Shown here: piece by piece, positions 3,658 through 53,711 of the stretch
Layout: every line of letters starts with the position of its first letter
Numbering within the stretch: the first letter of the stretch is position 1
Origin: Streptomyces sp. NBRC 109706
GTDB taxonomy: Bacteria; Actinomycetota; Actinomycetes; Streptomycetales; Streptomycetaceae
Reading direction: 5' to 3'
Length of the DNA stretch: 64,000 nt
Assembly: GCF_000974485.1 (NCBI RefSeq)
Contig: NZ_BBOM01000011.1
Coordinates: 310,001-374,000 of the forward strand
Position numbers and translations under genes: made by a program
The notes under the pieces: generated by a model
What the model was told of the DNA's origin: nothing
Seen by the model: the letters and a program-made list of their open reading frames with translations, nothing else
The model's database searches: none

Positions 3658-6055
3658 ACCGGACCCGATTCCGACCCGGCTCCGCCCACGGCTCACCGCG
3701 CCCGCTTCGGGCCCGACACGCGCCGAGCTGCCGCTCTCCCCGGCGGCCTCGGCCGGCCTCGGCCGGGTGTCGGGCGGCCGGCCGCTGGAGGAGCTGGTCG
3801 TGCTCACCGCCGCCGCCGCGCTGGTGGTGGCCGCCGCCGAGGCCACCGAGACGCCCGGGCTTCTCGTGGTCGGCCCCGAAGGGCCCGTGACCTGCCAACT
3901 CGACCTGGCCGCACGGGAATCGGCCGGCGCGCTGGTGCGGGCCACCGATGCCGCGCTGCGCCGCGCGCCCGCCGCCCGGGGCGACCGCGTCGGCCTGACC
4001 GTGCGGTCCACCCGCATCGGCCCGAAGGACCCCGCCACGCTGGAGCTGACCCTGGACGGGGGCGTGCTCCGGCTGCGCGACGCCGAGGGCGCGCACGAGG
4101 AGTGGTTCCTCGGCGTGCTGGCGCGGGCGGTCGACACGGCGCTCGCCGACTTCGCCGACCCGGCCGGGCCCCCGGGCGGGATCCGCCGCGCCGCCCCCGA
4201 CGACATCGCCGCCGCCCTGCGCCTGGGCACCACGGGATATGTCGCCGAGGCCGCCGACGGCACCCTCCTCGCGCCGGTCGAGGCCGTCGTCCGGGACGCC
4301 CCCGACCGTCCGGCCGTGGTCGCCGGCAACGACACCCTGACCTATGGCCAGCTGTGGCACGCCGCCGGGCTGGTCGCCGCCCGGCTGCTGGCCCTCGGCA
4401 CCCGGCCGGGGGACCGGATCGGGGTGCTGACCGGCAAGTCGATCGAGGCGCTGCCCGCGCTCCTCGGCGTGCTGCGGGCCCGCGCCGCCTATGTGCCGCT
4501 CGACCCCCGCGCCCCGGGGCGCCGGCTCACCGACCAGGTCCGGGACGCCGGTTGCCGGACCGTCCTGACCACCGGTGACCTCGCCGGCAGACTGCCCGGG
4601 GTGGCGGTGACCGAGGTCGCCGAGGCGCTGCGCACCGAACCGGCCCGCTCTCTCCCCGCGCCGCGCCCCGACGATCTCGCCTATGTCATCTACACCTCGG
4701 GTTCCACCGGAACCCCCAAGGGCGTCCGGGTGACGCACCGGGCGAGCGCGAGCTATGTCCGCTGGAAGGTCGGCCACCACGCCATCGACAGCGACAGCCG
4801 GGTGCTGCAGATCCCGTCCCTGGCGTTCGACAGCTCCGTCTCCGACATCTTCCCCGCGCTCGCCGGCGGCGCCCTGCTGGTGCTGGTCGACGCCCACCGG
4901 GCGCTGCCCAGGGACCTCGCCGGGACGGCACGCGAGCACGCCGTCACCCATGCCACGATCCTGCCCAGCCTGTACCGGCTGCTGCTGCCCGAACTCGCCG
5001 GCACCACACTGCGGTTGGTGACGGTGGCGGGCGAGGCGACGCCGGCCGACCTGGTCGCGCGCCACCACGCGGAACTGCCCCGGGTCCGGCTGGTCAACGA
5101 GTACGGGCCGACCGAGAACTCCGTCTGCGCCACCGCGTTCGACCACGGCCCGGACGCGGGTCCCGGGCTCCCCGTCGGCCGGCCCATCGCCAACACGGTG
5201 GTCAGGGTCGCGGCTCCCGACGCGGGACCGCTGCCGCCCGGATTCGTCGGCGAGGTGCTGCTGGCCGGGCGCGGCCTGGCCGACGGCTACCACGCCAGGC
5301 CCGAGCTGACCGCCGCCGCCTTCCTCCCCTCGAAGGAGGCGCCCGGCGGCCGTTGGTACCGCACGGGGGACCTCGGCTGGTGGCGCCCGGACGGCGTTCT
5401 GGAGTTCTGCGGGCGCGCCGACGGCCAGGTCAAGATCCGGGGCCACCGGGTCGAGATCGGGGAGGTCGAGCATGTGCTGACCGGTCTCGACGGCGTCGAG
5501 GCGGCCGCGGTCGTCGCCGTCGCCGATCCGGGGGCCGACACCGCCCTGGTCGCGTTCGTGGAGACGTCCCGCGGCGCGGAGTCCGTCGCCCGCGCGCTGA
5601 CCGACCGGCTGCCCCCGGCGATGCTGCCCGCCCACCTGGTGCCGCTGCCCGCGATCCCACGCCTGGTCAGCGGCAAACCGGACGGCCCCCGGCTCGCCGA
5701 ACTGGCCCGGACGGAGCTGGCCCGCGCCGAGGGCGGACCCGCGCCCGGCGGTGACCCGCTGGTCGCCACCATCGGCGAGATCTTCCGTTCCGTCCTCGGG
5801 GGCGGGCCGTTCGGGCCCGATGACGACTTCTTCCTGCGCGGCGGACACAGCCTGGCGGCGATCGCCGTCATCGGCCGGGTCGAGGACCGGCTCGGCGTCC
5901 TTCTCGACCTCGGCGACTTCCTCGATCTCGGCACCGCCCGCGAGGTCGCCGACCTCGTCCGCGCGGCCGGCCCGGCCTCCGCGCCGGGCCCGACCACCGG
6001 CGACGACCAGGCCCTGTGGCGGCTGCTCGACGGCGACGCCGACTCCCATGGCTAG
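3647..6055 (+). CDS. NRPS: truncated C - A - T
   Basis: 802 aa. The first ~180 residues lack any HHxxxDG motif and look like only the C-terminal lobe of a condensation domain, so they are probably a non-catalytic remnant or a docking element. A full adenylation domain follows (about 205-700; YTSGSTGTPKG near residue 349, YGPTEN, A10 Lys in SGKPDG), then a carrier domain with Ser near residue 734 (GGHSL). The specificity residues read by eye are D-S-S-I-T-A-E-V-C-K, an unassigned code. The ATG lies inside the end of the previous NRPS gene, and the 3' end overlaps the next gene by 8 bp, so the three are one transcript. The protein would load an amino acid and depend on the C domain at the end of the upstream protein for condensation. 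Confidence 0.93.
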   Translation: MTSEPDPIPTRLRPRLTAPASGPTRAELPLSPAASAGLGRVSGGRPLEELVVLTAAAALVVAAAEATETPGLLVVGPEGPVTCQLDLAARESAGALVRATDAALRRAPAARGDRVGLTVRSTRIGPKDPATLELTLDGGVLRLRDAEGAHEEWFLGVLARAVDTALADFADPAGPPGGIRRAAPDDIAAALRLGTTGYVAEAADGTLLAPVEAVVRDAPDRPAVVAGNDTLTYGQLWHAAGLVAARLLALGTRPGDRIGVLTGKSIEALPALLGVLRARAAYVPLDPRAPGRRLTDQVRDAGCRTVLTTGDLAGRLPGVAVTEVAEALRTEPARSLPAPRPDDLAYVIYTSGSTGTPKGVRVTHRASASYVRWKVGHHAIDSDSRVLQIPSLAFDSSVSDIFPALAGGALLVLVDAHRALPRDLAGTAREHAVTHATILPSLYRLLLPELAGTTLRLVTVAGEATPADLVARHHAELPRVRLVNEYGPTENSVCATAFDHGPDAGPGLPVGRPIANTVVRVAAPDAGPLPPGFVGEVLLAGRGLADGYHARPELTAAAFLPSKEAPGGRWYRTGDLGWWRPDGVLEFCGRADGQVKIRGHRVEIGEVEHVLTGLDGVEAAAVVAVADPGADTALVAFVETSRGAESVARALTDRLPPAMLPAHLVPLPAIPRLVSGKPDGPRLAELARTELARAEGGPAPGGDPLVATIGEIFRSVLGGGPFGPDDDFFLRGGHSLAAIAVIGRVEDRLGVLLDLGDFLDLGTAREVADLVRAAGPASAPGPTTGDDQALWRLLDGDADSHG

Positions 6056-7595
6056 CCCGCCGGATCGTGTCGCGTCGCTGTGCGCGCTGTTCGCGGCGGA
6101 ACTGCGCCTGGACTCCGTGCCGCCCGACGCCGACTTCTTCCTCGCCGGCGGGCACAGCCTGAGCGCCCTGGCGCTGGCCATGTCCGTCGAACGCGCGCTG
6201 GGCGTCCCGGTGGGCGTGCGCGACCTCGTCGAGTGCCCGACGCCGGCGCTGCTCGCCGGGCGGCTGGCGGCGCGGAGCGCCCCGACGCGGCAACGGCGCG
6301 TGTCCCGCGCCGAGTTGGGGAACGAGACCCGATCGCTGTGGCTGGCCCGCCAGCGGGGCGAGATCCCGGCGACCGCCTACTCCGTGCCCTGTCTCCTCGA
6401 TGTGCTGGGCGCGTCGGACGTGGACCGGCTCGGCGCGGCCGTCCTGGCCGTCCAACTGCGCCACCCGCGGCTGCGCACGGTCTTTGTCGAGCGGAGCGGC
6501 GCCCCGCACGCCGTGACGAGGCCGGATCCCCCGCCGCTGACCGTCGTCGACGAGGTGCCGGATCCGGCGGCCGCCGTCCGCGCCGAGATCGACCGTCCCT
6601 TCGACCTCGCGCGGGGGCCGCTCTTCCGCGCCACACTGTTCCGGCACGGCGAGCGCATGTCGCTGCTGCTCCTCGCCGACCATCTGGTGTGCGACGGCAC
6701 CAGCCTGCGGGTGCTGGCGTCCGAGCTGGCGGCGGCCTACCGCGCCCCCGGGGCGGCCGCCGGTGTGCTCGCCCCCGCCGAACACGCCAGGGACGAGGGC
6801 GAGTTAGCGGACGCGCTGCGGTACTGGCGGCGGGTGCTGTCACCCCCGCCCGAACCCCTGGCGCTGCCCGTCAGCCGCCCCCGGCGCGGGCCGGTCGGCG
6901 CCAGGACCGGGATCGTCACCGAGGAGATCCAGCGCCCCACCGTCGAACGGCTGCGCGCGCTCGCCCGCGCGCGGCGCGCCGGGCTGTTCGTGCCCGCCGC
7001 CACGGCGGTCGCCGGCGCCCTCGCCCGGCTCACCGGCGCGCGCGATATCTGCCTGGGCACCGCCGTGGACCGGCGGGCGCGCCTCGGCCTGACCGACGCC
7101 GTCGGCTTCCATGTGGTCACCGTGCCGCTGCGGATCGCCGTCGACCCCGACACCGGATGGCACCGGCTGCTCGCCGAGGTGGCCTCCGCCACCGTCGACG
7201 CCGTGGACCACAGCGCCGCGTCGTTCGACGAGATCGTCGCGGCCGTCGAACCACCCCGCCGCCCCTGGCGCACCCCGCTGTTCGACGTGTTCGCCACCGT
7301 GTACCCGCATATCGACACGGGCGAGGCCGGGGACGGCATCCGGCTGCGCGGGGGCCCGGTGCCGCTGCGCCAGGGCATCGTCGAGCTGTCGTTCCAGTTC
7401 GTCGAACACGCCCACGGGCTGCGCCTGGTGCTCCAACACGACACCGCCCGCTACGACCGCGACACCGCCGAACGCATCGCGCGCCGCGTCGTCGACGCCG
7501 CCGACCGCATCGCCGATTCCGATCCCGAGTCCGAGCCCGCCGCTGCCAGCCTGCCCGGCCCCGCCGTGTTCGACGGTTTCCGCTTCGGCACCTGA
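6048..7595 (+). CDS. NRPS: T - C didomain
   Basis: 515 aa, starting at an ATG that overlaps the stop of the previous NRPS gene. An N-terminal carrier domain (GGHSLSAL, Ser about residue 38) is followed by one condensation domain (about 85-510). The C-domain core motif reads DHLVCDG (His212 to Gly217) instead of HHxxxDG: the first His is Asp but the second, catalytic His and the Asp-Gly are kept, so activity is plausible. There is no adenylation domain, so the carrier must be charged in trans or receive the chain from the carrier of the preceding protein. Carrier-carrier adjacency across two proteins is unusual and may mark a skipped or modification-only station, for example the substrate platform of the hydroxylase encoded next. 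Confidence 0.93.
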   Translation: MASPPDRVASLCALFAAELRLDSVPPDADFFLAGGHSLSALALAMSVERALGVPVGVRDLVECPTPALLAGRLAARSAPTRQRRVSRAELGNETRSLWLARQRGEIPATAYSVPCLLDVLGASDVDRLGAAVLAVQLRHPRLRTVFVERSGAPHAVTRPDPPPLTVVDEVPDPAAAVRAEIDRPFDLARGPLFRATLFRHGERMSLLLLADHLVCDGTSLRVLASELAAAYRAPGAAAGVLAPAEHARDEGELADALRYWRRVLSPPPEPLALPVSRPRRGPVGARTGIVTEEIQRPTVERLRALARARRAGLFVPAATAVAGALARLTGARDICLGTAVDRRARLGLTDAVGFHVVTVPLRIAVDPDTGWHRLLAEVASATVDAVDHSAASFDEIVAAVEPPRRPWRTPLFDVFATVYPHIDTGEAGDGIRLRGGPVPLRQGIVELSFQFVEHAHGLRLVLQHDTARYDRDTAERIARRVVDAADRIADSDPESEPAAASLPGPAVFDGFRFGT

Positions 7596-7649
7596 GCGGC
7601 CACCGGCATCCGCACCGGGGACCGCCCCCACGCAGAGAGGACAGAGACC

Positions 7650-9236
7650 GTGGGAAAGCGCTACTTGTCGTCCGCAGTGAGCCCCCAACCGCTCCTCCAC
7701 CGCTGGTACGCCTGGCCTCATATGATCAACCCGCTCACGGCGGGGCTCAACCTCCGCGAACGGCAGCTGGCGACCCTCCGCAGCTATCTCGCCGACCCCG
7801 ATCTGCACACCAGGGCGGTGGCCGACCCGGGCAACTACGGCCGCCCCTTCCTCAACCCGTCGGGGGCGGGCTTCGAGCGGCTGAAGACCTTCCACGAGGA
7901 GGTCACGGTCGACGCGGCACCGCTGATCGACCTCGCCGACGATTTCACCGCCGCCCGCGTTCTGGTGGAGGAGCACGCCGACGGAGGCGCGCTCGCCCCC
8001 CTCTACGGCCAACTCCCCGCATCGCTGCGGGGGATCGTCGAGCTGGTCTACGACGACGTCAACCGCGCGTCGATCCGGATCCTCGAACCGGTGCTGTACC
8101 GGTCGTTCCGCGACACGATGGCCCGGGCGCAGCGGATCTCGCTGCTGCCGAGGCCCGACCGGGCGCAGCCGTACATCTTCAACAGCCCGATCCTGCCCGA
8201 CGCGTCCCGGTTCGACCTGGCGGTGCCGTTCGACGCGCCCGCCCTGGACGCACTCTTCGCGGCCCGCTGGTCGTCGGTCGACGTCCCCGAGCTGGGGGAG
8301 CGGCTGGGACTCGCCCCCGAACGGCTGGCGCGGTTCGCCGAGTTCTTCACCGAGACCGAGCCGGCCACCCCGCCGCCGGTACCGGACGGCACCGTGCGCG
8401 TCCGGTTCTTCGGCCATGCCTCGGTGCTGCTGGAGTCCGCGCACGCGGCGGTGCTCCTCGACCCGCTGCTCGGCTACACCGACGACGGCATCGACCACTT
8501 CACCGTCAGCGACCTGCCGCGCCGGCTGGACGCGATCGTGCTCAGCCACGCCCACTGCGACCATGTGTCGGTGGAGACGCTGCTCCAGCTGCGTCGCGTC
8601 GTGGACACCGTGGTCGTCCCCGGATCGGCCTCGGGATCGGTGCTCGACCCCAGCCTCGGGCAGCTGCTGACCGCCCTGGGGTTCCGCGCCGTGACCAGGC
8701 TGGAGGAGCTGGAGAGCGCCACGGTGGGGCACCGGCTCACCGTCACCTCGCTGCCCTTCCTGGGCGAGCACGCCGATCTCGACATCAGGGCGAAGATGGT
8801 GCCGCTGGTGGAGATCGAGGGCCGCCGGTTTGTCTTCGCCACCGACACCACCCCCATCGAGCCGGAGCTGTACCGCCGGCTCGGGGACCTTCTCACCGGG
8901 GTGGACGCGCTGTTCATCGGCCTCGAATGCGTCGGCGCGCCGCTGTCCTGGCTCTACGGGCCGCTGATGGGCCGCATGCCCGACCGCAGGCACAACCGGG
9001 GACGCCGGTTGAACGGTGCCGACGCGGCGATGGCCGAACAGCTGGCCAGGGCCATCGGCGTGCGGCGGATCTTCACCTATGCGATGGGGTTCGACCCCTG
9101 GCTCAAACACCTCACCGGCTCCGACTACGACCCCGCGTCCCCACAGAAGCGGGAGTGCGACCGGCTGGAGGCGAGCTGCGCGCGCTGGGGCGCCCGGGCG
9201 GAGCTGCTGCACCTGCGCGCGGAGCACACCTTCTGA
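7650..9236 (+). CDS. CmlA-type diiron beta-hydroxylase (MBL fold)
   Basis: 528 aa, GTG start with a good ribosome site (AGAGAGG at 7634-7640). The N-terminal ~240 residues form a separate domain and the C-terminal half is a metallo-beta-lactamase fold with HAHCDH (H300, H302, D304, H305). The length, the bipartite layout and the presence of a Glu (E373, in GEH), Asp399 (ATDTTP) and Glu426 match CmlA of chloramphenicol biosynthesis, whose iron ligands I recall as H305, H307, D309, H310, E377 and D403, with a constant offset of 4-5. CmlA-family enzymes (CmlA, FrsH) use a diiron centre and O2 to hydroxylate the beta-carbon of an aminoacyl group held on an NRPS carrier. The location inside the NRPS operon fits. 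The alternative is an ordinary UlaG-like MBL hydrolase; the Glu at the position of the usual metal His argues against that. Confidence 0.8.
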   Translation: MGKRYLSSAVSPQPLLHRWYAWPHMINPLTAGLNLRERQLATLRSYLADPDLHTRAVADPGNYGRPFLNPSGAGFERLKTFHEEVTVDAAPLIDLADDFTAARVLVEEHADGGALAPLYGQLPASLRGIVELVYDDVNRASIRILEPVLYRSFRDTMARAQRISLLPRPDRAQPYIFNSPILPDASRFDLAVPFDAPALDALFAARWSSVDVPELGERLGLAPERLARFAEFFTETEPATPPPVPDGTVRVRFFGHASVLLESAHAAVLLDPLLGYTDDGIDHFTVSDLPRRLDAIVLSHAHCDHVSVETLLQLRRVVDTVVVPGSASGSVLDPSLGQLLTALGFRAVTRLEELESATVGHRLTVTSLPFLGEHADLDIRAKMVPLVEIEGRRFVFATDTTPIEPELYRRLGDLLTGVDALFIGLECVGAPLSWLYGPLMGRMPDRRHNRGRRLNGADAAMAEQLARAIGVRRIFTYAMGFDPWLKHLTGSDYDPASPQKRECDRLEASCARWGARAELLHLRAEHTF

Positions 9237-9281
9237 TTCCGACCGCCACCGGCTTTCCGACCGCGACAAGGGAGTGCGGCG

Positions 9282-12200
9282 ATGGGACACAGGGGACAAG
9301 GGGTCTTCGAGCGCTATACCGGCCTGTCCACCGAGGGGCGCGCCGAACTGCTCGCCGCGATCCTCCGCGACCCCCTCGCCCGCCGGCGGGTCGCGCCCTC
9401 GGCCGCCCAGCGGCGGATGTGGTTCCTCCACCGCGCGGGCCTGGACCGCAGCGACTACAACGCGCCGGCCGCCTACCTGTTCCGTGGCCCGTTGGACGTC
9501 GAGGCGCTGCGCCGCGCGTTCGCCGCCCTGTGCCGCCGGCACCGGGCGCTCGCCTCGCGCTTTGTGGACGCCGCAGGGGAACCGTTGGTGCTCACCTCCG
9601 CCGCGCCACCGCCGTTCCGGTACGAGGAGCTGCGCGGGACCGCCCGGGGGAGCGGCCGGGAACCCTGGCGCCCGCTGGTCGACGCCGAGGCGCGCCGCCC
9701 CTTCGAGCTGGCGGGCGGCCCGCTGGCCCGCTGTCTGGTGGTGGCGAGCGACCCGGACGAGTTCGCCGTCGTCATCACCGCGCACCACACGGTGGTCGAC
9801 GGCTGGTCGCTGGGGGTGCTGCTGCGCGATCTGTCGGCGCTCTACCGGGCGGAGACCGGCGGCGCACCGGTGACGCTGCCCGAACTCGCCCACGACTACC
9901 AGGACTTCGTCGCCTGGCAGGAGGAGAGGCTGGGCGGCGAAGGATACGCCAGGGCGGTCGAGCACCTGACGGCGCGGTTGGCGGGCGCGCCGGCCGTGCT
10001 CGACCTGCCGGCCGACCGGCCGCCCCCGCCCCGGCCGACGCTGCGCGGCGGCACGGTGACCGCCACCCTGCCGGCGGAGCTGACCGGCCGGCTCGGCGCG
10101 CTCGGACGGCGGGTGGGCGCCACGTCGTTCATGGCCCACCAGGCGCTCTACGCGGCCACGTTGGCGCACCACTCCGGCCAGCGCGATCTGCTGATCGGCG
10201 TCCCCTACGCCGGCCGGGAGCGGCACGCGTTCGCCTCGGTGGTGGGGAACTTCGTCAATACGGTGGTCCTGCGGGCCGATCTCTCCGGCGATCCGTCGTT
10301 CCACGATCTGCTGACCCGGACCAGGCGTGACGCGATCGACGCCTACCGGCACGCCGCCGTGCCGTTCGACCGTCTCGTCGAGGCCCTGGACGCGCCGAGG
10401 GCGCCCGGACGCAACCCGCTCTTCCAGGCGTTCTTCGCCCACGAGCCCGCCGGGAGCGGCGGCGCGTCCGGTGGGCTGGAACTCGGCGGGGTCGTCGGGG
10501 AACCCCTCGTCGTCGAACGCACCACCACGGCGCTGGATCTGGACCTGCATGTCGGCGAGCGGCCGGACGGCACGGTGGAACTCGCCCTCACCCACGCCCT
10601 GGACCTCGTCGACCCCACCACCGCGCGGCGGCTGCTGCGCCATCTGACCCGGCTCGCCGTCGCGGCGGCGGCGGCGCCCGACACCCCGCTGGGCGATCTG
10701 CCGCTGCTGCCCGAGGCCGAGCGCGCCGCGCTGCTGGGCGCCCGGCAGCCCGCGCTGGAACCGGCCGCCGAACTGCTGCACCGCTGTGTGGAAGGGGCCG
10801 TGGCGGCGCATCCGGACGCGGTCGCGGCGAAGCGCGGCGCGGAACGGCTCAGCTACCGGGCGTTGGACGCCTCCGCCAACCGACTGGCCCGGCGGCTGCG
10901 CGCGGCGGGTGTCGGCCCCGAGGTGCCGGTCGGCGTCTGCCTGTCGCGCGGCCCCGCGCTGCTGGTCGCGATTCTCGCCGTGCTCAAGGCGGGCGGCGGC
11001 TATGTCCCGATGGAGGCCACCCTCTCCGACGAACGCCTCGCCACCCTGGTCGCCGACACCCGGATGCCCGTTCTGGTCACCGACGACCGGCACCTGCCCC
11101 GGCACACGCGGTTCCCCGGCCGGGTGGTGTCCGTGGACGACGCCGCCCTCGCGGCGCTGCCCGCCTCGCCGCCCCCGGTCGCGGTCGGCCCCGCGAACAT
11201 GGCCTACATCATGTACACCTCGGGTTCCACCGGCTCGCCCAAGGGCGTTGTGGTGGAGCACCGTCAGGTGGTGCGGCTGGTCGAGTTCTACCGGTCGGCG
11301 CTGGAACCGGAGGAGGTGTCCGGGGTGCTGGCGTCGACCCCGGTCGGCTTCGACGCGACGATCCAGGAGTACTTCGCGACACTGCTGCTGGGCGGGACGG
11401 TGCTGTTCGTCGACTCGGTCTTCGATCTGCGCACCCTGCCGGAACGGGAGTCGGTGACGCTGGTGCAGGGCGTGCCCAGCCTGCTCCAGGAGCTGCTGGC
11501 CGGCGGGCCGCTGCCCGGCGGGGTCACCACGGTCATGCTCAGCGGGGAGCCGCTGCCGGGCGAACTGGTCGAGCGCCTGTACGCGTCGGGCTCGGTGAAA
11601 CGGGTCTACAACGTCTACGGCGTCACCGAGTGCACCGCCGACGCTTCCTGGTGCCTGGTGGAACGCGGCACCCGGCAGGCGGGCCTGGGCGAGCCGCTGC
11701 CGGGGATGCGGCGCTATGTGCTGGACGCGCGCCACCGCCCCGTGCCGGTCGGCGCCAGAGGCGAGCTGTATCTGGCGGGGCCCGGGCTGTCCCGTGGCTA
11801 TCTGGGCCGCGAGGAGCTGACCGGGGAACGGTTCCCGCCCGACCCGTTTGTGCCCGGCGAACGGATGTACCGCACCGGCGATCTGGTGCGGTACCGGGCC
11901 GACGGGCAACTCGTCTGTCTGGGCCGGGTCGACCGTCAGATCAAGGTGAACGGCTGCCGGGTCGAACCGGCCGAGGTGGAGGCCGCGTTACGCGCCCATC
12001 CGGCGGTCGACCAGGCCGCCGTGGTGGCGCACCGGGTCGGCGACGACAACCGGCTCGCCGCCTATGTGGTCCTCGCCGCCGGGCGGCGGCTGCCCCGGGA
12101 CCTGCGGAGATCGCTGGCGCGGCGGCTGCCGCCCGCCCTGGTGCCGAGCACCGTGACCGCGCTCGACGCGCTCCCGCTCAACGCCAACGGAAAGCTCGAC

Positions 12201-13298
12201 ACCCGCGCGCTGCCGCGCCCGAGGCGGCCACAGCCCTCGGGCCCGGCCGCGCCGGGCACCCCGGCCGAGGAACGGCTGCTGGCCATCTGGCGCCGGATCC
12301 TCGGCCGGGAGGACTTCGGCGTCAGCGACGACTTCTTCGCGCTGGGCGGGCAGTCCCTGACCGCGCTGCGGATGACCGCGCTGGTCAAGGCCGAGTTCGG
12401 CGTCGAGCCCGGGGTGGCGGCGCTGTTCGAGGCGCCCACCGTCGCCGAACTCGCCGCGCTGCTCGGCTCGTCGACGCCCGGGCGCGGTGGCGGGGCGCTG
12501 GTGGAGCTGCGCGCCGGCGTGGGCACGCCCATGGTGCTGGTCCACGCCGTGGGCGGCGGCGTCGTCGGCTACGCGGACCTGTGCGCCGCGTTCTCCTCGG
12601 ACCGGCCGGTGTTCGGCGTCGAGGCCGAGGGACTGACCGGCGGCGGGCCCCCGCCGGACGATGTCGGCGAGCTGGCCGGCCGCTATCTGGACCGGTTGGA
12701 CGCCGGGTTGGGCGCCGGCCCCGTGGTGCTCGCCGGCTGGTCGATGGGCGGCCTGGTCGCCTATGAGATGGCCGCGCGGGCCCGGGAACGCGGCCGCGAC
12801 GTCGAGGCGCTGGTGCTGGTCGACACGGCGCCGGAGGCCGAGCGGGCGCCCGTCGACGAGGCGGAACTCGCCGCGCTGCACAGCCGGTACCTCGCCGCCG
12901 CGGCCGGCCTCGATGCCGGGCTCACGGCGCGGGAGGCGCGGGGCCGCCCGATGGCGGCGCTGCTCGACTGGGCCAGGGCCCGGGGCGTGCTGGGCCAGGA
13001 GACCTCGATCGCCGAACTGCGGCGGATCTTCGATGTCTTCGCCGCCAACCTGCGGGCCTTCGACGCCTACCGGCCCACGCCGCTGCGGGTGCCGAGCCTC
13101 CTGGTCGCCGCGCGGGCCGGCGACCCCGCCGGGCGCGGCGCGGCCTTCCGCGCACTGCTGGGCGACTCCCTCACGGTGGAGGTCGTCGACGGCGACCACC
13201 ACACCGTGCTGCGCCCCCCGCACTGCCGGGAGCTGGCCGGGACCATCGAACGCTGGCTGGCCGCCGACCACCCCCGGACGGGCCCCAACACGCCGTAG
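9282..13298 (+). CDS. NRPS termination module: C-A-T-TE
   Basis: 1338 aa with ATG after AAGGGAG at 9268-9274. Domains: C (about 35-460; PSAAQRRMWFL, intact HHTVVDG near residue 168), A (about 485-985; YTSGSTGSPKG, NGKLDTR), carrier (Ser about 1023; GGQSL, where Gln replaces the usual His) and a type I thioesterase (about 1085-1330; Ser in GWSMG near 1151, His in GDHH near 1303). The pocket read by eye is D-A-Q-G-M-S-V-A-D-K, with partial resemblance to the Gln-type code DAQDLGVVDK, so a polar side chain is possible but not secure. The TE marks this as the last station of the line, releasing the peptide by hydrolysis or cyclisation. The next gene starts 92 bp later and is functionally unrelated, so the cluster probably ends here. 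Confidence 0.95.
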   Translation: MGHRGQGVFERYTGLSTEGRAELLAAILRDPLARRRVAPSAAQRRMWFLHRAGLDRSDYNAPAAYLFRGPLDVEALRRAFAALCRRHRALASRFVDAAGEPLVLTSAAPPPFRYEELRGTARGSGREPWRPLVDAEARRPFELAGGPLARCLVVASDPDEFAVVITAHHTVVDGWSLGVLLRDLSALYRAETGGAPVTLPELAHDYQDFVAWQEERLGGEGYARAVEHLTARLAGAPAVLDLPADRPPPPRPTLRGGTVTATLPAELTGRLGALGRRVGATSFMAHQALYAATLAHHSGQRDLLIGVPYAGRERHAFASVVGNFVNTVVLRADLSGDPSFHDLLTRTRRDAIDAYRHAAVPFDRLVEALDAPRAPGRNPLFQAFFAHEPAGSGGASGGLELGGVVGEPLVVERTTTALDLDLHVGERPDGTVELALTHALDLVDPTTARRLLRHLTRLAVAAAAAPDTPLGDLPLLPEAERAALLGARQPALEPAAELLHRCVEGAVAAHPDAVAAKRGAERLSYRALDASANRLARRLRAAGVGPEVPVGVCLSRGPALLVAILAVLKAGGGYVPMEATLSDERLATLVADTRMPVLVTDDRHLPRHTRFPGRVVSVDDAALAALPASPPPVAVGPANMAYIMYTSGSTGSPKGVVVEHRQVVRLVEFYRSALEPEEVSGVLASTPVGFDATIQEYFATLLLGGTVLFVDSVFDLRTLPERESVTLVQGVPSLLQELLAGGPLPGGVTTVMLSGEPLPGELVERLYASGSVKRVYNVYGVTECTADASWCLVERGTRQAGLGEPLPGMRRYVLDARHRPVPVGARGELYLAGPGLSRGYLGREELTGERFPPDPFVPGERMYRTGDLVRYRADGQLVCLGRVDRQIKVNGCRVEPAEVEAALRAHPAVDQAAVVAHRVGDDNRLAAYVVLAAGRRLPRDLRRSLARRLPPALVPSTVTALDALPLNANGKLDTRALPRPRRPQPSGPAAPGTPAEERLLAIWRRILGREDFGVSDDFFALGGQSLTALRMTALVKAEFGVEPGVAALFEAPTVAELAALLGSSTPGRGGGALVELRAGVGTPMVLVHAVGGGVVGYADLCAAFSSDRPVFGVEAEGLTGGGPPPDDVGELAGRYLDRLDAGLGAGPVVLAGWSMGGLVAYEMAARARERGRDVEALVLVDTAPEAERAPVDEAELAALHSRYLAAAAGLDAGLTAREARGRPMAALLDWARARGVLGQETSIAELRRIFDVFAANLRAFDAYRPTPLRVPSLLVAARAGDPAGRGAAFRALLGDSLTVEVVDGDHHTVLRPPHCRELAGTIERWLAADHPRTGPNTP

Positions 13299-45622: not shown

Positions 45623-48049
45623 TCAGGGCAGCGGCGGCAGATCGGCCGGGTGGAGCAGCGTCAGCTCCTCCGTGCTCGGATCGGGCAGCCTGGCCACCCG
45701 GCCTGCGTGGCTCTCCACCATGGACTCGAACGTCTGCCGGGCGGTCCTGCCGTTGCCGAACGAGGGGCCCCGGTCCATCGCGGTGAAGTGCTTCACCAGC
45801 GCGTCCTCGGTGCCCTCGGCCAGGTCGTACTCCTGCTCCCTGGCCTGCTGGCGCACGATGCTGAGCAGTTCCTCGGGGGCGTAGTCGCCGAAGGCGATGG
45901 TGCGGGAGAAGCGCGAGGCGACCCCGGGGTTGGTGGCCAGAAAGCGTCGCATCTCCTCGGTGTAGCCGGCGACGATCACCACCACCGACTCCCGGTGGTC
46001 CTCCATCAGCTTGACCAGGGTGTCGATCGCCTCCCTGCCGAAGTCCCGGCCGCCGTCCTCGGGCGAGAGCGCATACGCCTCGTCGATGAACAGCACGCCG
46101 CCCTTGGCCCGTTCGAAGACCTCCTGGGTGCGGATCGCCGTCGAACCGATGTGCTCACCCACCAGGTCGACCCGGGACACCTCGATCAGATGCCCGCTCC
46201 CGAGCACCCCGAGCGAGGCCAGGATCTCCCCGTAGAGCCGCGCCACCGTGGTCTTGCCGGTGCCGGGGGAGCCGGTGAACACCAGATGGCGGCGGACCGA
46301 GGCGGCCTTGAGGCCCGCCTTCACCCGGCGCCGTCCCACCTCGATCATGTCGATCAGCGCCCGCACCTCCGTCTTGACGGTGTCCAGGCCCACCAGGGAG
46401 TCGAGTTCGGCCAGCACCTCGTCCGCCGGCCGGCTCCCCGACTCGTCGGACGTCGGCTCGTCGGCCGGCGTCGGCTCGGGCGCGGCCGGGGGCGGCGGCG
46501 TTGGTGCCGGTGCCGGTGTCGTCGAACGGGCGGTCTCCGGGGCGGGCGCGGGGTCCGTGGCGGCTTCCGCGCCGGGGGGCGTCGCCTCGTCGCTCTGGCA
46601 GTCGTTCACCACCGGGCTTCCCTCGGCGAACACATAGCCGCCCCGGGTGCAGCGTTCGGTGCGGCAGCGGGTCAACTCGGCGCGGCAGCCGTCGATCACA
46701 TGGAAGCCGTAGCCGCCGGAGTCCGCGACCCGGCAGCGGGTGAAGCGGCCCACGCCGCCGGCCGAGACATAGACCCCGGCCTCGGACGGCGCCAGCACGG
46801 TGGTGTCGGAGACGGCCGGATCCGCGCCCTTGGTGACGATCAGGCCCGTCCTGGCCCGCTCGATGGTGCAGCCGGTGACCGAGCCGCCGCTGCCCTCGTC
46901 CCGGAACCAGGCGCCGGTGCCGACCTCGGTGATCCGGCAGGTGTCCAGACGGGCGGTCGCCCCGTCGCTGACCGAGACCGCGGAGCCGCGCACCTCGTCG
47001 ATGGTGCTGTCCACCACGTCGACGCGGGATCCGGTGTCCAGCACGAACAGCGCGTCCGGCACCGCGCGCAGCGCGCAGGACTCCAGCACCACCGTCGCGC
47101 CGTCGCTCACCCAGACCGCCGGATAGTCGCCGGTGCCCTCCGCTATCTCGCAGTCGTGCGCATCGGCGTGGGTGCCCGGGTCCCAGGCCGAGACGCCGTT
47201 GCGGCCGAACCGGGTCACCCGGGTGCGCATCAGCGTCAGCACCGAACGGGAGCGCAGGTCCAGGGCGTTCTCCGGGATGTCGGTGACCCGGCTGTCGGCC
47301 AGGGTGAGGACCGCGTCCCGCTCCAGGGTGATCCCGTCGCCCGTGGTCCCGCCGATCCGGCAGTCCGTCAGATGGGCCGTCGCCCGGTCGGCGAGGCTGA
47401 CGCCCGCGCCCTTGATCTGCTCGACCACCAGGCCGAGCGCGTCCACCGCGCTGCCGTCGCCGGTCACCGCGAGGCCGGCTCCCGAGGCCCGCTCCACCCG
47501 GCAGTTCTCCAGCCGCAGATGGGCAGGGCCCCGCACGGTGATGCCGGCCTGCCCCGACTCGGTGATCCGGCAGTCCTCGAAGAGCCCGCCCGCCTGGTCG
47601 GTGACGTTGACCCCGACCCCGGTGGCGTTGCCGACCGCGCAGCCCCGCACCGTGGGCCGCGCCCCGGCCCGCACCTCGATGCCGGCGGACGAGGTGGTGC
47701 GCACCCGCAGCCCGGTCAGCTCGGGGGTGCTGCTCTCCACCAACACGGCCGGCGCGGTGGTGTCCTGGCCCTCGATCAGCAGATCCCGCACGGTCGCCGA
47801 ACCCCGGACCGTCAGCGGGACGCCCTCGGCCGGTGCGATCCGGGCCGGTCCGTCCCGGTCGTCCTGGGGGCCGCGCACCGTCACGGCCTGCTCGATCACC
47901 AGGTTCTCGCGGTAGGTGCCGGGGCCGAGCAGCAGCACATCGCCGTCCGCCGCGGCGGCCAGGGCCTCGGCGACCGAGCCGTAGACGGCCGTCCGGCGCC
48001 GCCAGCGTGCAGTTCCGGTGTGCGTGACCTGGACCGAGCCCTTAGCCAT
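45623..48049 (-). CDS. Right-handed beta-helix / AAA ATPase fusion
   Basis: 808 aa. Residues about 20-460 are pectate-lyase-like parallel beta-helix repeats of ~22-24 residues (VRDLLIEGQDTTAPAVLVES, LRLENCRVERASGAGLAVTG and so on). A Pro/Ala/Glu linker (about 465-540) leads to a CbbX/SpoVK-type AAA domain: Walker A GSPGTGKTT near 593, Walker B LFIDEAYAL near 653, and a helical lid. CbbX-like AAA proteins remodel protein complexes; the beta-helix may recognise the target or a polymer. No signal peptide. Start ATG 48049 is inferred from the conserved-looking MAKGSVQVTHTG; there is little ribosome site. It is divergent from the encapsulin genes across 504 bp. Confidence 0.88.
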   Translation of the reverse strand: MAKGSVQVTHTGTARWRRRTAVYGSVAEALAAAADGDVLLLGPGTYRENLVIEQAVTVRGPQDDRDGPARIAPAEGVPLTVRGSATVRDLLIEGQDTTAPAVLVESSTPELTGLRVRTTSSAGIEVRAGARPTVRGCAVGNATGVGVNVTDQAGGLFEDCRITESGQAGITVRGPAHLRLENCRVERASGAGLAVTGDGSAVDALGLVVEQIKGAGVSLADRATAHLTDCRIGGTTGDGITLERDAVLTLADSRVTDIPENALDLRSRSVLTLMRTRVTRFGRNGVSAWDPGTHADAHDCEIAEGTGDYPAVWVSDGATVVLESCALRAVPDALFVLDTGSRVDVVDSTIDEVRGSAVSVSDGATARLDTCRITEVGTGAWFRDEGSGGSVTGCTIERARTGLIVTKGADPAVSDTTVLAPSEAGVYVSAGGVGRFTRCRVADSGGYGFHVIDGCRAELTRCRTERCTRGGYVFAEGSPVVNDCQSDEATPPGAEAATDPAPAPETARSTTPAPAPTPPPPAAPEPTPADEPTSDESGSRPADEVLAELDSLVGLDTVKTEVRALIDMIEVGRRRVKAGLKAASVRRHLVFTGSPGTGKTTVARLYGEILASLGVLGSGHLIEVSRVDLVGEHIGSTAIRTQEVFERAKGGVLFIDEAYALSPEDGGRDFGREAIDTLVKLMEDHRESVVVIVAGYTEEMRRFLATNPGVASRFSRTIAFGDYAPEELLSIVRQQAREQEYDLAEGTEDALVKHFTAMDRGPSFGNGRTARQTFESMVESHAGRVARLPDPSTEELTLLHPADLPPLP

Positions 48050-48553: not shown

Positions 48554-49975
48554 ATGACGACTTCTGTCGAACCGACTTCCGAAAGCCAGGCCGCTCCCGT
48601 CGAAACCCCCCGACTGAGCCTGGACACCACCGCCGCACGCAATCTGGCGACCACCACCAAGACACCACCGCAGATGCAGGCCATCACCTCCCGGTGGTTG
48701 CTGAAGGTGCTGCCCTGGGTGCAGGTCTCCGGTGGCACGTTCCGGGTGAACCGCCGGCTCAGCCACACCGTGGGGAACGGCCGGGTCGAATTCTTTTCGA
48801 CCGGTCCGGAAATTCGTGTGATTCCCGCCGAGCTGGCGGAACTTCCCGCGCTCGCCGGATTCGACGACCCCGAAACCCTCGACGCCCTCGCGGCGGCCTG
48901 CGTCCAGCGGGACTTCGCCCCCGGCGAGGTGGTGGTCCGCGCCGGCGACCCGGCCGACCGGCTGGTGCTGATCGCGCACGGCAAGCTCAGCCGACGCGGG
49001 GCCGGTGCCTATGACGGCGAGACCGAGTTCGGGGTGCTGGCCGACGGCGACTTCTTCGCCGACGACACCCTCACCGACGCCGAACCCGGCGCCTACGAGC
49101 ACGGCCTCACCGCGCTCACCAGCGGCACCGTACTCACCCTGGCCCGCGCCGACTTCGACCGCATCGGCGAGAACTCCCCGGCGCTGCGCGCCCATCTGGC
49201 CGCCGCCGACAGCCATCTCCCCGAACAGCGCAACGCCCAGGGGGAGTCGGCCATCGCGCTGGCCGCCGGCCATGTGGGGGAGCCGTCGCTGCCGGGCACC
49301 TTCGTGGACTACGAGGTGTCGCCCCGGGAGTACGAACTGAGCGTGGCACAGACGGTGTTGCGGGTGCATTCGCGGGTGGCGGATCTCTACAACGAGCCGA
49401 TGAGCCAGGTCGAGGAGCAACTGCGCCTGACGGTCGAGGCGTTGCGGGAGCGCCAGGAGCACGAGCTGGTGAACAACCGGGAGTTCGGGCTGCTGCACAA
49501 CGCCGACCCGCGCCAGCGCCTGCACACCCGCTCGGGCCCGCCCACCCCCGACGACCTCGACGAGCTGCTGGCCACCGTCTGGAAGGAGCCCAGCGTCCTG
49601 CTGGCGCACCCCCGGGCCATCGCCGCCTTCGGCCGGGAGTGCAACGCGCGCGGGCTCTACCCGGCGCCCACCGAGATCTCCGGGCACTCTGTGCCGTCCT
49701 GGCGCGGGGTGCCGCTGCTGCCCTGCGACAAGATCCCGGTGAACGCGGCGGGCTCCAGCTCCATTCTCGCCCTGCGCACCGGCTCCGAACGCCAGGGCGT
49801 GGTCGGCCTGCACCGCACCGGAATTCCCGACGAGTACCAGCCCAGCCTCTCCGTCCGGTTCATGGGCATCAGCGAACAGGCCATCATCTCCTATCTGGTG
49901 AGCGCCTATTACTCGGTGGCCGTACTCGTCCCCGACGCGCTGGGCATTCTTGAGGACGTGGAGATCGGTCACTGA
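48554..49975 (+). CDS. Family 2B encapsulin shell protein 1 (EshA-like)
   Basis: 473 aa. The N-terminal arm (about 1-75) holds [20 protein letters not shown] and [16 protein letters not shown], followed by a cyclic-nucleotide-binding-like domain (about 95-215; [20 protein letters not shown]). The HK97-type shell fold fills the rest ([60 protein letters not shown]). This is the EshA/Family 2B encapsulin layout; EshA of S. griseus and S. coelicolor forms ~20-nm particles and affects ppGpp and antibiotic production. The nucleotide domain lacks the usual phosphate-binding Glu and Arg, so it may not bind cAMP in the standard way. No known cargo gene (terpene cyclase, desulfurase, kinase) is adjacent. 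A paralogue follows. Confidence 0.92.
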
Positions 49976-50011
49976 GAAACCGCGCGACCGCCTTTTCGCC
50001 CGCCGTAGGAT

Positions 50012-50055
50012 CCGGTCTCCCGGTGCGCCCTTTTCCCGGGTGAGTGGGAGACCGG
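50012..50055 (+). promoter_or_regulatory. Inverted repeat after the first shell gene
   Basis: CCGGTCTCCC (50012-50021) and its exact complement (50046-50055) could pair around a 24-base loop. With the stronger hairpin downstream it forms a structured linker between the shell genes. Confidence 0.4.
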
Positions 50056-50100
50056 CCGACGGCCGGGCGGAAACGGTTCGTCGTCGGAATTTCCCGAACC

Positions 50101-50140
50101 GCCGCCGCCGCGCCCACCTCCGCCGCGCGGCGGCGGCTTT
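50101..50140 (+). terminator. Hairpin with TTT between the two shell genes
   Basis: GCCGCCGCCGCGC (50101-50113) and its exact complement (50125-50137) form a 13-bp stem with an 11-base loop, followed directly by TTT. It lies 40 bp before the second encapsulin start, so it is a terminator or attenuator that could reduce read-through into the second gene. Confidence 0.7.
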
Positions 50141-50179
50141 CCCCGTGTTCTCCCCAGCCCGCCCCAGGAAAGGCCGTCA

Positions 50180-51595
50180 GTGAATTCCCCGAACCCGCCC
50201 CCGAGCGCCGTCGCCGAGCGGACCGCAGAACCGACCGCGCTGGGCACCGAGGCCGCCGGCAAGCTGGCCGGCACCGTCAAGACACCGCCCCAGAGCCAGG
50301 GCATCACCCCACGGTGGCTGCTGCGGATGCTGCCCTGGGAAGAGGCCACCGGCGGCGCCTACCGGGTCAACCGCCGGCTCACCCACACCCTGGGCGACGG
50401 CCGCGTCGAGTTCTTCGCCGACGGGGGCCGACTCCGCGTGATCCCCGCCGAGTTGACCGAGCTGCCGGCGCTCGCCGGGCTCGCCGACCAGGAGGCGCTG
50501 GCCGCCCTCGCCGACCGCTGCGCGCACCGCGAGCACCAGGCCGGCGAGACCCTGGCCACCGCCGGCGCGCCCATCACCGAGGTGCTGTTGATCGCGCACG
50601 GCAAGGTGCGCCGGCTGGTGCCCGCCGCCTACGACGGCGAGGCCGCCGTCGCCGTCCTCGGCGGCGGCGCCTTCGCCGGCGACCAGGCGCTCGAAACGCC
50701 CCCGGCCGACCCTCCCGTCAACTGGCCGCACACCCTGCGCGCCACCACCCGCTGCACCGTGCTGGCGCTGCCGCTCAGCGCCGTCGCCGAGGTGGCCGAC
50801 CGTTCGCCCGCGCTGCGCGCGCACCTCGACGACGCCGCGCGGCGCCGCGCGGTCCCGCGCAACAGACGCGGCGAGGCCGATATCGCGCTGGCCGCCGGCC
50901 ATGTGGGGGAGCCGTCGCTGCCGGGCACCTTCGTGGACTACGAGACCTCGCCCCGGGAGTACGAACTGAGTGTGGCGCAGACGGTGTTGCGGGTGCATTC
51001 GCGGGTGGCGGATCTCTACAACGAGCCGATGAGCCAGGTCGAGGAGCAACTGCGCCTGACCGTGGAGGCGTTGCGGGAGCGCCAGGAGCACGAGCTGGTG
51101 AACAACCGGGAGTTCGGGCTGCTGCACAACGTCGACCCACGCCAGCGCCTGAGCACCCGCTCGGGCCCGCCCACCCCCGACGACCTGGACGAACTGGTCT
51201 CCCGGCGCCGCAACACCCACCTTCTGCTGGCCCATCCCCGAACCATCGCCGCCATCGGCCGCGCCTGCACCGCGCGCGGCGTCTACCCGTCCACCGCCGA
51301 GGTCGAGGGGACCCCCGTCCACGCCTGGCGCGGCATTCCCCTGTTGCCCTGCGACAAGATCCCGGTGTCCCCGACCCACACCAGCTCCGTCATCGCGCTC
51401 CGCCTCGGCGCCTCCCGTCAGGGAGTGGTCGGCCTGCACCGGACCGGCATCCCCGACGAGTACCAACCCGGCCTCAACGTGCGCTTCATGGGCGTCGACG
51501 ACCGGGCCGTGATCTCCTACCTGGTCAGCGCCTACCACTCCGTGGCCGTGCTGGTCCCCGACGCCCTCGGTGTGCTGGAGGATGTCGAGCTGTGA
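50180..51595 (+). CDS. Family 2B encapsulin shell protein 2 (EshA-like)
   Basis: 471 aa from GTG 50180 with AGGAAAGG upstream. Same architecture as the preceding protein: N-terminal arm ([20 protein letters not shown]), cyclic-nucleotide-binding-like domain (about 95-215, also without the normal phosphate-binding Glu/Arg pair) and HK97 shell domain. Outside the shared block the two are clearly diverged, especially in the nucleotide domain, but residues 235-339 are nearly identical to 234-338 of protein 1, including synonymous sites. Two shell proteins made side by side suggest a mixed, two-component shell or alternative shells with different sensor domains. It converges with the gene for a disordered protein, 49 bp between stops. 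Confidence 0.92.
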
Positions 51596-51644: not shown

Positions 51645-52205
51645 TCAGGCCCCCTGTTCCGACCAGTAGCCGGGAGCCGGCGCCGGGGCCGGTGCCTGGG
51701 CCTGCTGGTGCTGGGGGTAGCCGCCGTTAGCCGGGTAGCCGCCGGGACGGGGCGCCGGCGGCCGGGGCGCGGCCGGACGCATCTGCTGCGGGGCGGCCGG
51801 CCGCATCTGCTGCGGCGAGGGCGCCTGGGGAGCCTGCGGGGCGGGGTAGGGACGTCCGCCGCCCGGCTGCTGCTGGTGGTGGCCGTAGCCACCGGGGCTC
51901 TGGTAGCTCGGCGCGGGCGCCGAGAGCGGCTGCCTGACCGGCATGGCCTGGTAGCCGGGGTAGCCTCCGCCGTGCTGCGCCGGAGCCGGCTGCGGGGGCG
52001 CCGACGAGGCCGAGGGAAGCGCCGGGAGAGCGGGCAACGACGGCTGGGGGGAGGGGTGTTGGTACCCCAGCGAGTCATAGGCGGCCGGCACCCGGATGGG
52101 GGCGATCTGCGGGGTTCCCCGCTCGGCCACCAGCCTGTCGTAGATGGGGGTGTCGGGGAAGGAAGGTGAGGAGTAGCCACCACCGTAGGGGCGCGGGAGG
52201 GTCAT
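51645..52205 (-). CDS. Pro/Gln/Gly-rich disordered protein (DUF6643-like)
   Basis: 186 aa. The first ~45 residues look conserved (PRPYGGGYSSPSFPDTPIYD, LVAERGTPQIAPIRVPAAYD). The rest is a low-complexity tail rich in Pro, Gln, Gly, Tyr and Ala, with a tandem PQQMRPAA repeat. The start motif recalls the DUF6643 family of Streptomyces, of unknown function. No signal peptide or membrane segment. A short conserved head and a long disordered region could be a scaffold, a condensate former or a cargo-type adaptor. It is convergent with the second encapsulin gene and divergent from the TerD gene. Confidence 0.8.
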   Translation of the reverse strand: MTLPRPYGGGYSSPSFPDTPIYDRLVAERGTPQIAPIRVPAAYDSLGYQHPSPQPSLPALPALPSASSAPPQPAPAQHGGGYPGYQAMPVRQPLSAPAPSYQSPGGYGHHQQQPGGGRPYPAPQAPQAPSPQQMRPAAPQQMRPAAPRPPAPRPGGYPANGGYPQHQQAQAPAPAPAPGYWSEQGA

Positions 52206-52442: not shown

Positions 52443-53711
52443 ATGCTCAAAGGCTCTAATGTCCCCGTGCCTGCGCGGTCCGTCCGCGTCGAGATTGGCT
52501 GGAACACCTCGGCCGGCACACCGGATGTGGACGCCTCAGCGCTGCTGCTGACCGAGGGCCGGGTCCGCTCCGACGAGGACTTCGTCTTCTACAACCAGCC
52601 CCGGCACGCCTCGGGCGCCGTCCGCTACGAGGGCAAGCAGCCGCAGGGCGGTGGCTCCGTCGACCGCATCGAGGTCGATCTGACCTCCGTGGAGCCGGAG
52701 ATCGAGAAGGTCGTGCTGGCCGCGTCCGCCGACGGCGGCACCTTCGGCCAGGTCCCCGGTCTGCACATCCGGGTGCTCGACTCGGACAACGGCCAGGAGG
52801 TCGCCCGCTTCGACAGCCAGGACGCCACCAGCGAGACGGCCTTCGTCATCGGCGAGCTGTACCGGCGCCAGGGCGCGTGGAAGTTCCGCGCCGTGGGCCA
52901 GGGGTACGACAGCGGCCTCGCCGGGCTGGCCACGGACTTCGGCATCAGCGTCGACGACGAGCCCGCCCCCACCCCGCCGCCGGCTCCCGTCACGGTGCCG
53001 GCCCCCGCGCCGCCGGCCGCGCCGCCGGCGCCCGCCCAGCCGGCGGCCCCCGCCGGCGGCTCCCCGATCCGGCTGAGCAAGATCACGCTCACCAAGGACG
53101 CCCCCGCCATCTCGCTCGCCAAGCAGGGCGCCACCAGCGGGCGGATGCTGGTCAACCTCAACTGGCAGCAGCGCAACCAGCCGCAGCAGAAGCAGGGCGG
53201 CTGGAAGAACCGCATCGCCAAGGCCATGGGCGGCGGTCTCGACCTCGACCTGTGCGCCCTGTTCGAGCTGACCGACGGCCGCAAGGGCGTGATCCAGGCC
53301 CTCGGCAACGCCTTCGGCTCGCTCCACCAGCCGCCCTATATGCATCTGGACGGCGACGACCGCACCGGCGCGGTGGCCCAGGGCGAGAACCTCACGGTCA
53401 ACCTCGACCACGCCAGGGAACTGCGCCGGGTGGTCATCTTCGTGACCATCTACTCCGGCGCCAGCAGCTTCCAGGACCTCTCCGCCACGGTCACCCTCAC
53501 CCCGGAGAAGGGCGCGCCCATCGAGTTCTTCCTCGACGAGTGCAACGTCCCCTCCCCGGTCTGCGTTCTGGCCACCCTGGTCAACGAGGGCGGCGGGCTG
53601 ACGGTCAACCGTGAGGCCAGGTATCTGGTGCCGGACCGGGGCGTCAGCCCGCAGCGCACCGTGGACCACGCCTACGGCTTCGGCATGCAGTGGACGCCGG
53701 GCCGCAAGTGA
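52443..53711 (+). CDS. Protein with two TerD domains
   Basis: 422 aa. Two TerD-fold domains (about 5-180 and 215-420) are joined by a Pro/Ala-rich linker ([18 protein letters not shown]). Each has the TerD pattern; the second has [20 protein letters not shown], part of a Ca2+-binding bowl, and [17 protein letters not shown]. TerD proteins belong to tellurite and stress networks and bind Ca2+. The start ATG has GGAGGAA upstream. It relates functionally to the TelA operon at 14.5 kb, 37 kb away. Confidence 0.92.

Follow-up and report, generated by a model that had tools for sequence, protein, structure and literature searches.

What do two encapsulin shell genes that lie side by side build, and what does their product enclose? 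The question is raised by a 64,000-nucleotide stretch of Streptomyces sp. NBRC 109706 (assembly GCF_000974485.1, contig NZ_BBOM01000011.1, positions 310,001 to 374,000), termed the window below, in which two Family 2B shell genes, Enc1 and Enc2, follow each other on the plus strand. The locus as described is a further member of the known two-component Family 2B kind. Its shell proteins, the silent-site similarity between their genes and the candidates for their cargo are taken in turn.

Identity of the pair

The two open reading frames are uninterrupted, complete and on the same strand. Their products share 66% identity over 453 aligned positions, and the Enc1 start at 48554 agrees with the N-termini of its relatives (MTTSVE...). 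The features of the pair are as follows.

48554 to 49975, plus strand: Enc1, Family 2B encapsulin shell protein, 473 aa, ATG start
48614 to 48661, plus strand: Enc1 N-arm motif, 16 residues, resembling the cyclase cargo tag described below
48866 to 49198, plus strand: Enc1 inserted domain resembling cyclic nucleotide (cNMP)-binding domains, about residues 105-215
49271 to 49552, plus strand: putative converted core of Enc1, residues 240-333
49574 to 49594, plus strand: Enc1 diagnostic motif 1, TVWKEPS, residues 341-347
49976 to 50179, plus strand: Enc1-Enc2 spacer, 204 bp, in which no terminator-like site was found
50180 to 51595, plus strand: Enc2, Family 2B encapsulin shell protein, 471 aa, GTG start
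50900 to 51181, plus strand: putative converted core of Enc2, partner of the Enc1 core, with coordinates taken from the Enc1/Enc2 alignment
51203 to 51220, plus strand: Enc2 diagnostic motif 1, RRRNTH, one residue shorter than that of Enc1

The original prediction described two complete EshA-type shell genes in tandem, both related to the HK97 fold, and this description holds. The NCBIfam equivalog for Family 2B shells (encap_f2b, NF041163) gives 741 bits for Enc1 and 706 for Enc2 against a cut-off of 400, and the SrpI-like, HK97-type shell domain PF19307 gives 454 and 446 bits, far above its cut-off of 22.8. The Pfam domain cNMP_binding (PF00027) scores 44.6 bits in Enc1 and 37.8 in Enc2, at residues 119-205 and 117-208 respectively, between the N-arm and the remaining shell domain, which is the position of an E-loop insert. 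The 2B model has five matches in the 7.7 Mb genome, and the two that exceed the cut-off are Enc1 and Enc2; at 204 bp apart, they lie within the 10 kb that defines a two-component system. The nearest solved structures are PDB 9bix, 9bje and 9bhu (E 1e-172 to 1e-204), the last of which we take to be the shell of a 2-methylisoborneol (2-MIB) synthase Family 2B system. By Enc1 sequence, the closest relatives are Streptomyces triticirhizae and Streptomyces sp. MP131-18. An AlphaFold model of Enc1 (mean predicted local distance difference test score 65, predicted template modelling score 0.43) was used for rough secondary structure only, and a scan for sigma-70 promoters and terminators found nothing.

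Both shell genes have a match on their antisense strand (48601-49098 and 50226-50721, minus strand) to the Rfam family Sernc350, an antisense RNA from Saccharopolyspora, at 86 and 71 bits, with a gathering score of 50. These matches probably reflect coding homology, but suggest that an antisense transcript across a 2B gene is already catalogued.

One mixed shell or two compartments

A precedent for the pair is found in Streptomyces lydicus, in which, according to the available text of the report, the Family 2B proteins Sl-Enc1 and Sl-Enc2 co-assemble into one mixed shell with irregular tiling (Dutcher et al. 2025, PMC12407261). Sl-Enc2 by itself forms shells, while Sl-Enc1 by itself forms no regular ones and enters those of Sl-Enc2. 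The same text demonstrates T=1 shells of about 28 nm for relatives of the window pair, covers 503 two-component operons, puts such operons at 21% of 2B systems, some of them without obvious cargo and classed as "Other", and gives diagnostic motif 1 as TVWK in Enc1 and RRRK in Enc2 (PMC12407261).

The window pair carries this marker, reading TVWK in Enc1 and RR-R (aligned as RR-RNTH) in Enc2. Its conservation was followed in the window and 80 further loci (L numbers), among which 56 loci have two shell genes longer than 1000 nt; L006, L008, L023, L062 and L077, where the partner is cut off or too short, are left out of the pair counts. Residues 342-343 differ by Enc type in all 56 pairs, and Enc1 precedes Enc2 in 55. 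At the 20 loci with a single shell gene and no cut-off partner seen, the gene is of Enc1 type in 2 and of Enc2 type in 18; this count includes L036, whose partner could be missing because a contig end is only 0.8 kb away. In L014 and L017, both from Nonomuraea, an Enc1-type gene is the only shell gene found. Family 2B shells occur in 147 of 150 sampled genomes of the genus Streptomyces.

The window pair and the S. lydicus pair are alike in family, Enc1-Enc2 order, diagnostic motif 1, inserted domain and N-arm. The best PDB matches of the window pair, 9bje and 9bix, are taken from the marker motif to be Sl-Enc1 and Sl-Enc2. The two pairs differ in surroundings. That of S. lydicus is classed among the xylulokinase systems, a type whose native cargo had not been determined according to the available text (PMC12407261), whereas the window pair has no xylulokinase nearby and occupies another site, flanked by a beta-helix/AAA fusion gene, DUF6643 and TerD. 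Because the window pair shares the type-fixed marker with the S. lydicus pair, one mixed shell is by far the likelier product, and it is highly probable by this analogy that Enc1 and Enc2 form one. They would be the two subunits of a T=1 particle of about 28 nm, in which Enc2 would be the self-sufficient shell former and Enc1 its obligate partner. Enc1 departs from Enc2 in its A-domain motif, N-arm and inserted domain, and within the mixed shell the two partners would most likely differ at the five-fold interface, the luminal loop and the inserted domain.

The original prediction had offered one two-component shell and two separate compartments as alternatives. Orthology with the S. lydicus pair and the shared marker favor the first. 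Two compartments, each with its own cargo and regulation, would fit the fact that the inserted domains and luminal motif 2 differ between Enc1 and Enc2, but the orthologous pair co-assembles, its Enc1 makes no regular shells when alone (PMC12407261), and the core common to Enc1 and Enc2 is kept nearly identical, which together make this a very improbable arrangement. The further idea that the inserted domains act as sensors is doubtful, as the domain is said not to bind cyclic nucleotides (available text of PMC12407261, citing earlier work).

Silent-site similarity between Enc1 and Enc2

The near-identical segment of Enc1 and Enc2 spans residues ~231-334. At codons that encode the same amino acid in both genes, 85 of 90 are identical in residues 240-333 of the window pair (94%) compared to 122 of 195 outside residues 231-334 (Fisher p 1.7e-9). 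The same pattern is seen across the 56 pairs, in which the median silent identity of a locus's own pair is 0.85 in this core and 0.65-0.67 in three other segments. In the core tree, the Enc1 and Enc2 of one locus are sisters in 25 of 56 loci, including the window (support 0.985), while trees of the other segments group them in 5, 7 and 4. Likewise, at silent sites the own paralogue is closer than any orthologue in 24 of 56 loci for the core, and in 5, 2 and 3 for the other segments. A run test at p<=0.01 detects tracts in 30 of 56 own pairs; among the controls it does so for 11 of 200 cross-locus and 9 of 200 orthologue pairs. Of the 56 own pairs, 16 lie above the 99th percentile of cross-locus pairs. 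Of the 30 tracts, 17 end at residues 331-339, just short of the marker at residues 341-347, and 2 lie elsewhere (residues 28-61 and 419-463). Apparent conversion also occurs across an intervening cyclase gene, over gaps of 2.26-2.30 kb in L020, L030, L050 and L071. In L055 (10001-12971, Microtetraspora sp. NBRC 13810), the Enc1/Enc2 tract covers residues 2-336, inserted domain included, and the marker still differs.

It is very likely, from these sequence comparisons, that partial gene conversion between Enc1 and Enc2 has recurred in a lineage-specific manner; a literature search found no account of gene conversion in encapsulins. The low-confidence Enc1 model would place the core at the end of the E-loop and in the P-domain helices. 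The reason that we infer for the conversion is that the P-domain/late E-loop segment would be copied repeatedly between the genes, so that the subunits stay interchangeable and the shared interface of the shell is held common, while the A-domain marker and the inserted domains would be kept apart.

Several observations weigh against this reading. By the run test, 26 of the 56 pairs have no significant tract. Four tracts pass the marker by a few codons (ends at residues 348-351) and that of L064 reaches the C-terminus (residue 473), the marker differing nevertheless in each. In addition, conversion between two copies may be a passive result of their high similarity and not of selection. Finally, some silent-site constraint exists at residues 274-377, because 10 of the 11 significant cross-locus tracts fall there. 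If this constraint, acting on the core at the DNA or RNA level, explained the silent identity instead of conversion, the somewhat raised cross-locus identity of the core (0.69 vs 0.57-0.61 in the other segments) would be expected. However, such an explanation is left with very little probability by the excess of own-pair silent identity (+0.20 to +0.30 at residues 241-320, +0.02 to +0.19 elsewhere), by the sister grouping in the core tree and by the few significant cross-locus controls.

Neighbors and candidate cargo

The genes immediately flanking the pair are the following.

45623 to 48049, minus strand: right-handed beta-helix fused to a SpoVK/EccA/CbbX-like AAA ATPase, upstream neighbor, syntenic in 8 relatives
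51645 to 52205, minus strand: DUF6643, proline-rich, downstream neighbor
52443 to 53711: TerD, which with DUF6643 marks the local site

To the left of the pair, a DeoR regulator and a membrane protein accompany the beta-helix/AAA fusion, and the same arrangement on the left is kept in L006-L013, the 8 nearest relatives, with no DeoR match in L013 and one extra gene ahead of Enc1 in L010-L012. To the right, DUF6643 and TerD are followed by an Asp/Glu racemase, a Nudix protein, an EIIA-man (DhaM-like) protein, Dak2 and Dak1. The left edge of the window (positions 1-13298) holds part of a nonribosomal peptide synthetase cluster that includes a CmlA-like beta-hydroxylase. The local neighbors of Streptomyces pairs vary by clade.

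That no known cargo gene adjoins the pair is confirmed within the window. Searches by tblastn (E<=1e-3) with five cargo classes, namely 8 of 40 linked prenyltransferases, 8 of 32 terpene cyclases, 8 of 14 xylulokinases, 6 2-MIB-type cyclases and 5 phosphoketolases, found nothing. Pfam scans of 40 further window genes (E cut-offs 1e-3, 1e-3, 1e-10 and 1e-8) found no cargo family and no Aminotran_5, with 8 called genes unscanned and cysteine desulfurase sought by Pfam only. A xylulokinase was rejected as local cargo, as tblastn found no xylB beside the pair or elsewhere in the window and an FGGY kinase match on the same contig lies ~275 kb outside it. Nor does a cyclase lie within the operon, the Terpene_syn_C_2 matches of the genome being on contigs C21 and C20 only.

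The best candidate is a geosmin-synthase-type cyclase of 741 aa, encoded in the same genome and unlinked to the pair (C21:253633-255858). For cyclases of this type, a targeting motif GPTGLGTSAAR has been proposed between the two cyclase domains and at the C-terminus (Andreas and Giessen 2021, available text of PMC8346489). The C21 cyclase has tags at both canonical places, GPTGLGTAAAD in the linker and GPRGIGTMAAR at the C-terminus, and it matches NF041168, "family 2 encapsulin cargo terpene cyclase", over residues 3-722. Of the 56 pairs, 26 have a cyclase from the same cluster no more than 7 kb away, placed between Enc1 and Enc2 in 10 of them; among the 21 Streptomyces pairs there is none. 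Operons of this kind (Enc1-cyclase-Enc2, as in L020 of Planotetraspora and L045 of Actinomadura) have the same two shell types and the same cyclase cluster as the window genome, and 30 of 32 linked cyclases have the same tag by a loose pattern, but their cyclase sits inside the operon. In a class-wide sample of 216 genomes, the cyclase is found in 43, a full-length 2B gene in 44 and both in 41; this co-occurrence is partly linkage, because the two genes are adjacent in many genomes. Within the genus, the cyclase is present in 147 of 150 genomes and accompanies a 2B shell in 146, which gives little contrast.

The C-terminal tag was counted in 120 Streptomyces cyclases. Genomes with a proven pair carry it in 25 of 26 cases, those with one 2B gene in 27 of 61, and those with several genes, unlinked or unresolved, in 22 of 33; in a set of 106 cyclases, the counts are 25 of 26, 26 of 55 and 19 of 25. 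The counts depend on the pattern, a stricter one giving 20 of 51 for single and 22 of 29 for several genes. The 120 cyclases exclude L060 (broken gene), G035 (same place as the genome of L034), a second copy in the genome of L043, eight genomes known from single-shell loci alone, G102 (no 2B match) and genus genomes without fetched C-termini (80 genomes were taken in the main batch and a few more added).

Two other sources of tagged cargo in this genome were rejected. The second cyclase (C20:432367-433365) has no tag within its 446-residue frame. A search of the genome for LGTxAAR found 6 DNA places, fewer than the 16 of a reversed-pattern control, and by gene calls none is in frame except one signal-peptide-like LGTPAAS.

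The suggestion that the cargo is encoded elsewhere thus gains a candidate in the tagged, unlinked C21 cyclase, while the identity of the cargo is only what we infer. That this cyclase is the cargo, encoded in trans and taken up during shell assembly, is a tentative assignment with slightly less than an even chance. Of the mixed shell, the conversion and the trans-encoded cyclase cargo taken together, we hold that the chances of being right and wrong are about equal. Counting against it, the C21 cyclase scores 1181.7 bits, just below the NF041168 cut-off of 1200; in addition, 20 of the 26 cyclase-linked pairs have a prenyltransferase nearby as well. The C-terminal tag also occurs in many single-gene genomes, as counted above, and clades without it often retain a GPGTSAAD-like linker motif. 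Moreover, the association of tag and pair rests on few independent events: the tag state changes 6 times on the tree of 106 cyclases, and one untagged clade of 27 single-shell genomes largely accounts for the excess among pair genomes.

A phosphoketolase (or xylulokinase) could instead be the cargo of the mixed shell, lost locally in this clade and still acting in trans. In L010-L013, a sister lineage, a phosphoketolase is the next gene after Enc2 and faces it, and L066 has another next to its single shell gene. The placement of L013 with the window clade (support 0.75 and 0.84) makes the phosphoketolase neighbor look ancestral to that clade. When the core is left out of the Enc1 tree, L010-L013, where phosphoketolase flanks the pair, are united with the window group (0.999), and the no-cargo group is nested inside this larger clade (0.963). 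The genome retains one phosphoketolase (C22:133464), on another contig and 69-72% identical to the shell-adjacent ones, and 11 other Streptomyces pairs have a xylulokinase no more than 7 kb away. Phosphoketolase uses xylulose 5-phosphate and xylulokinase makes it; that both neighbor kinds of Streptomyces pairs and of L066 act on this compound may be a coincidence or a theme. However, phosphoketolase adjoins only 5 of 80 loci, on the strand opposite to the shell genes. The window, L007 and L009 lack it at this site, while L006 and L008 end too early to tell. None of the 5 phosphoketolases beside shells has a terminal extension or a cargo tag, apart from one internal chance match, and none of 14 xylulokinase-cluster proteins has a tag. 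Since phosphoketolase is present in 128 and 2B shells in 147 of 150 genus genomes, their co-occurrence says little. Such a cargo appears improbable.

An equally poor prospect is that the pair has no enzyme cargo and forms an EshA-like regulatory or scaffold particle. EshA has reportedly been studied as a regulator of growth and antibiotic production, and no tagged gene was found adjoining the pair, but cargo genes are linked to many of the pairs of other actinobacteria and of cyanobacteria, and this genome does encode a tagged cyclase.

The cyclase tag LGTSAAR resembles the LGTAAAR of the shell N-arm. The tag consensus is GGPTGLGTSAARI, and that of the N-arm is a stretch of 17 residues. Strict LGTxAAR lies within the first 70 residues of 51 of 137 shell proteins. 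It is also contained in 17 of 32 linked cyclases and in 1 of 1166 other neighbor proteins, but in none of 40 prenyltransferases or 6 2-MIB-type cyclases. Looser patterns separate these groups less (126 of 137 shell proteins, 23 of 32 linked cyclases, 2 of 40 prenyltransferases, 0 of 6 2-MIB-type cyclases and 62 of 1166 others). The window shells, with LDTTAAR and LGTEAAG, are near the strict pattern without matching it. No mention of the likeness was found in the available text of PMC12407261 and PMC8346489, or in a literature search that lacked the 2-MIB encapsulin paper. The 2-MIB synthase systems themselves share the shell fold and a related cargo tag, GPTGLGT (available text of PMC8346489), and differ in having one shell gene with adjacent cargo.

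In L146, a shell gene (465-1556, minus strand) is too short for the inserted domain, matches the second half of the 2B model only and has an RRRN marker; beside it lies a two-domain cyclase (1406-3730, minus strand) with tags GTAAAR and GLGTAAAH. The shell is perhaps a 2B shell without the insert, or a 2A shell with cyclase cargo.

An unlikely proposal is that the cargo tag copies the N-arm of the shell itself (LGT[SA]AAR in both). The tag would dock in the groove filled by the Enc1 N-arm at the two-fold pore, and Enc1 (with an ordered arm) and Enc2 (with a free groove) would set loading and pore opening. Orphan Streptomyces pairs would be loaded in trans by tagged geosmin synthase, conversion would keep docking and the subunit interface common, and selection would protect the marker. 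A difficulty for such mimicry is that in a 2A structure the N-terminus runs outward, whereas the cargo is inside (available text of PMC8346489). Of the mixed shell, the conversion and the trans-encoded cyclase cargo taken together, we hold that the chances of being right and wrong are about equal.

With the tagged, unlinked cyclase, loading in trans could be tested directly. Conversion confined to a segment and sparing one marker would separate the parts of a mixed HK97 shell that must stay common from those that must differ. It would also mean that trees built from the whole Enc1 and Enc2 genes can be chimeric, a point relevant to the published view that the two have separate histories.

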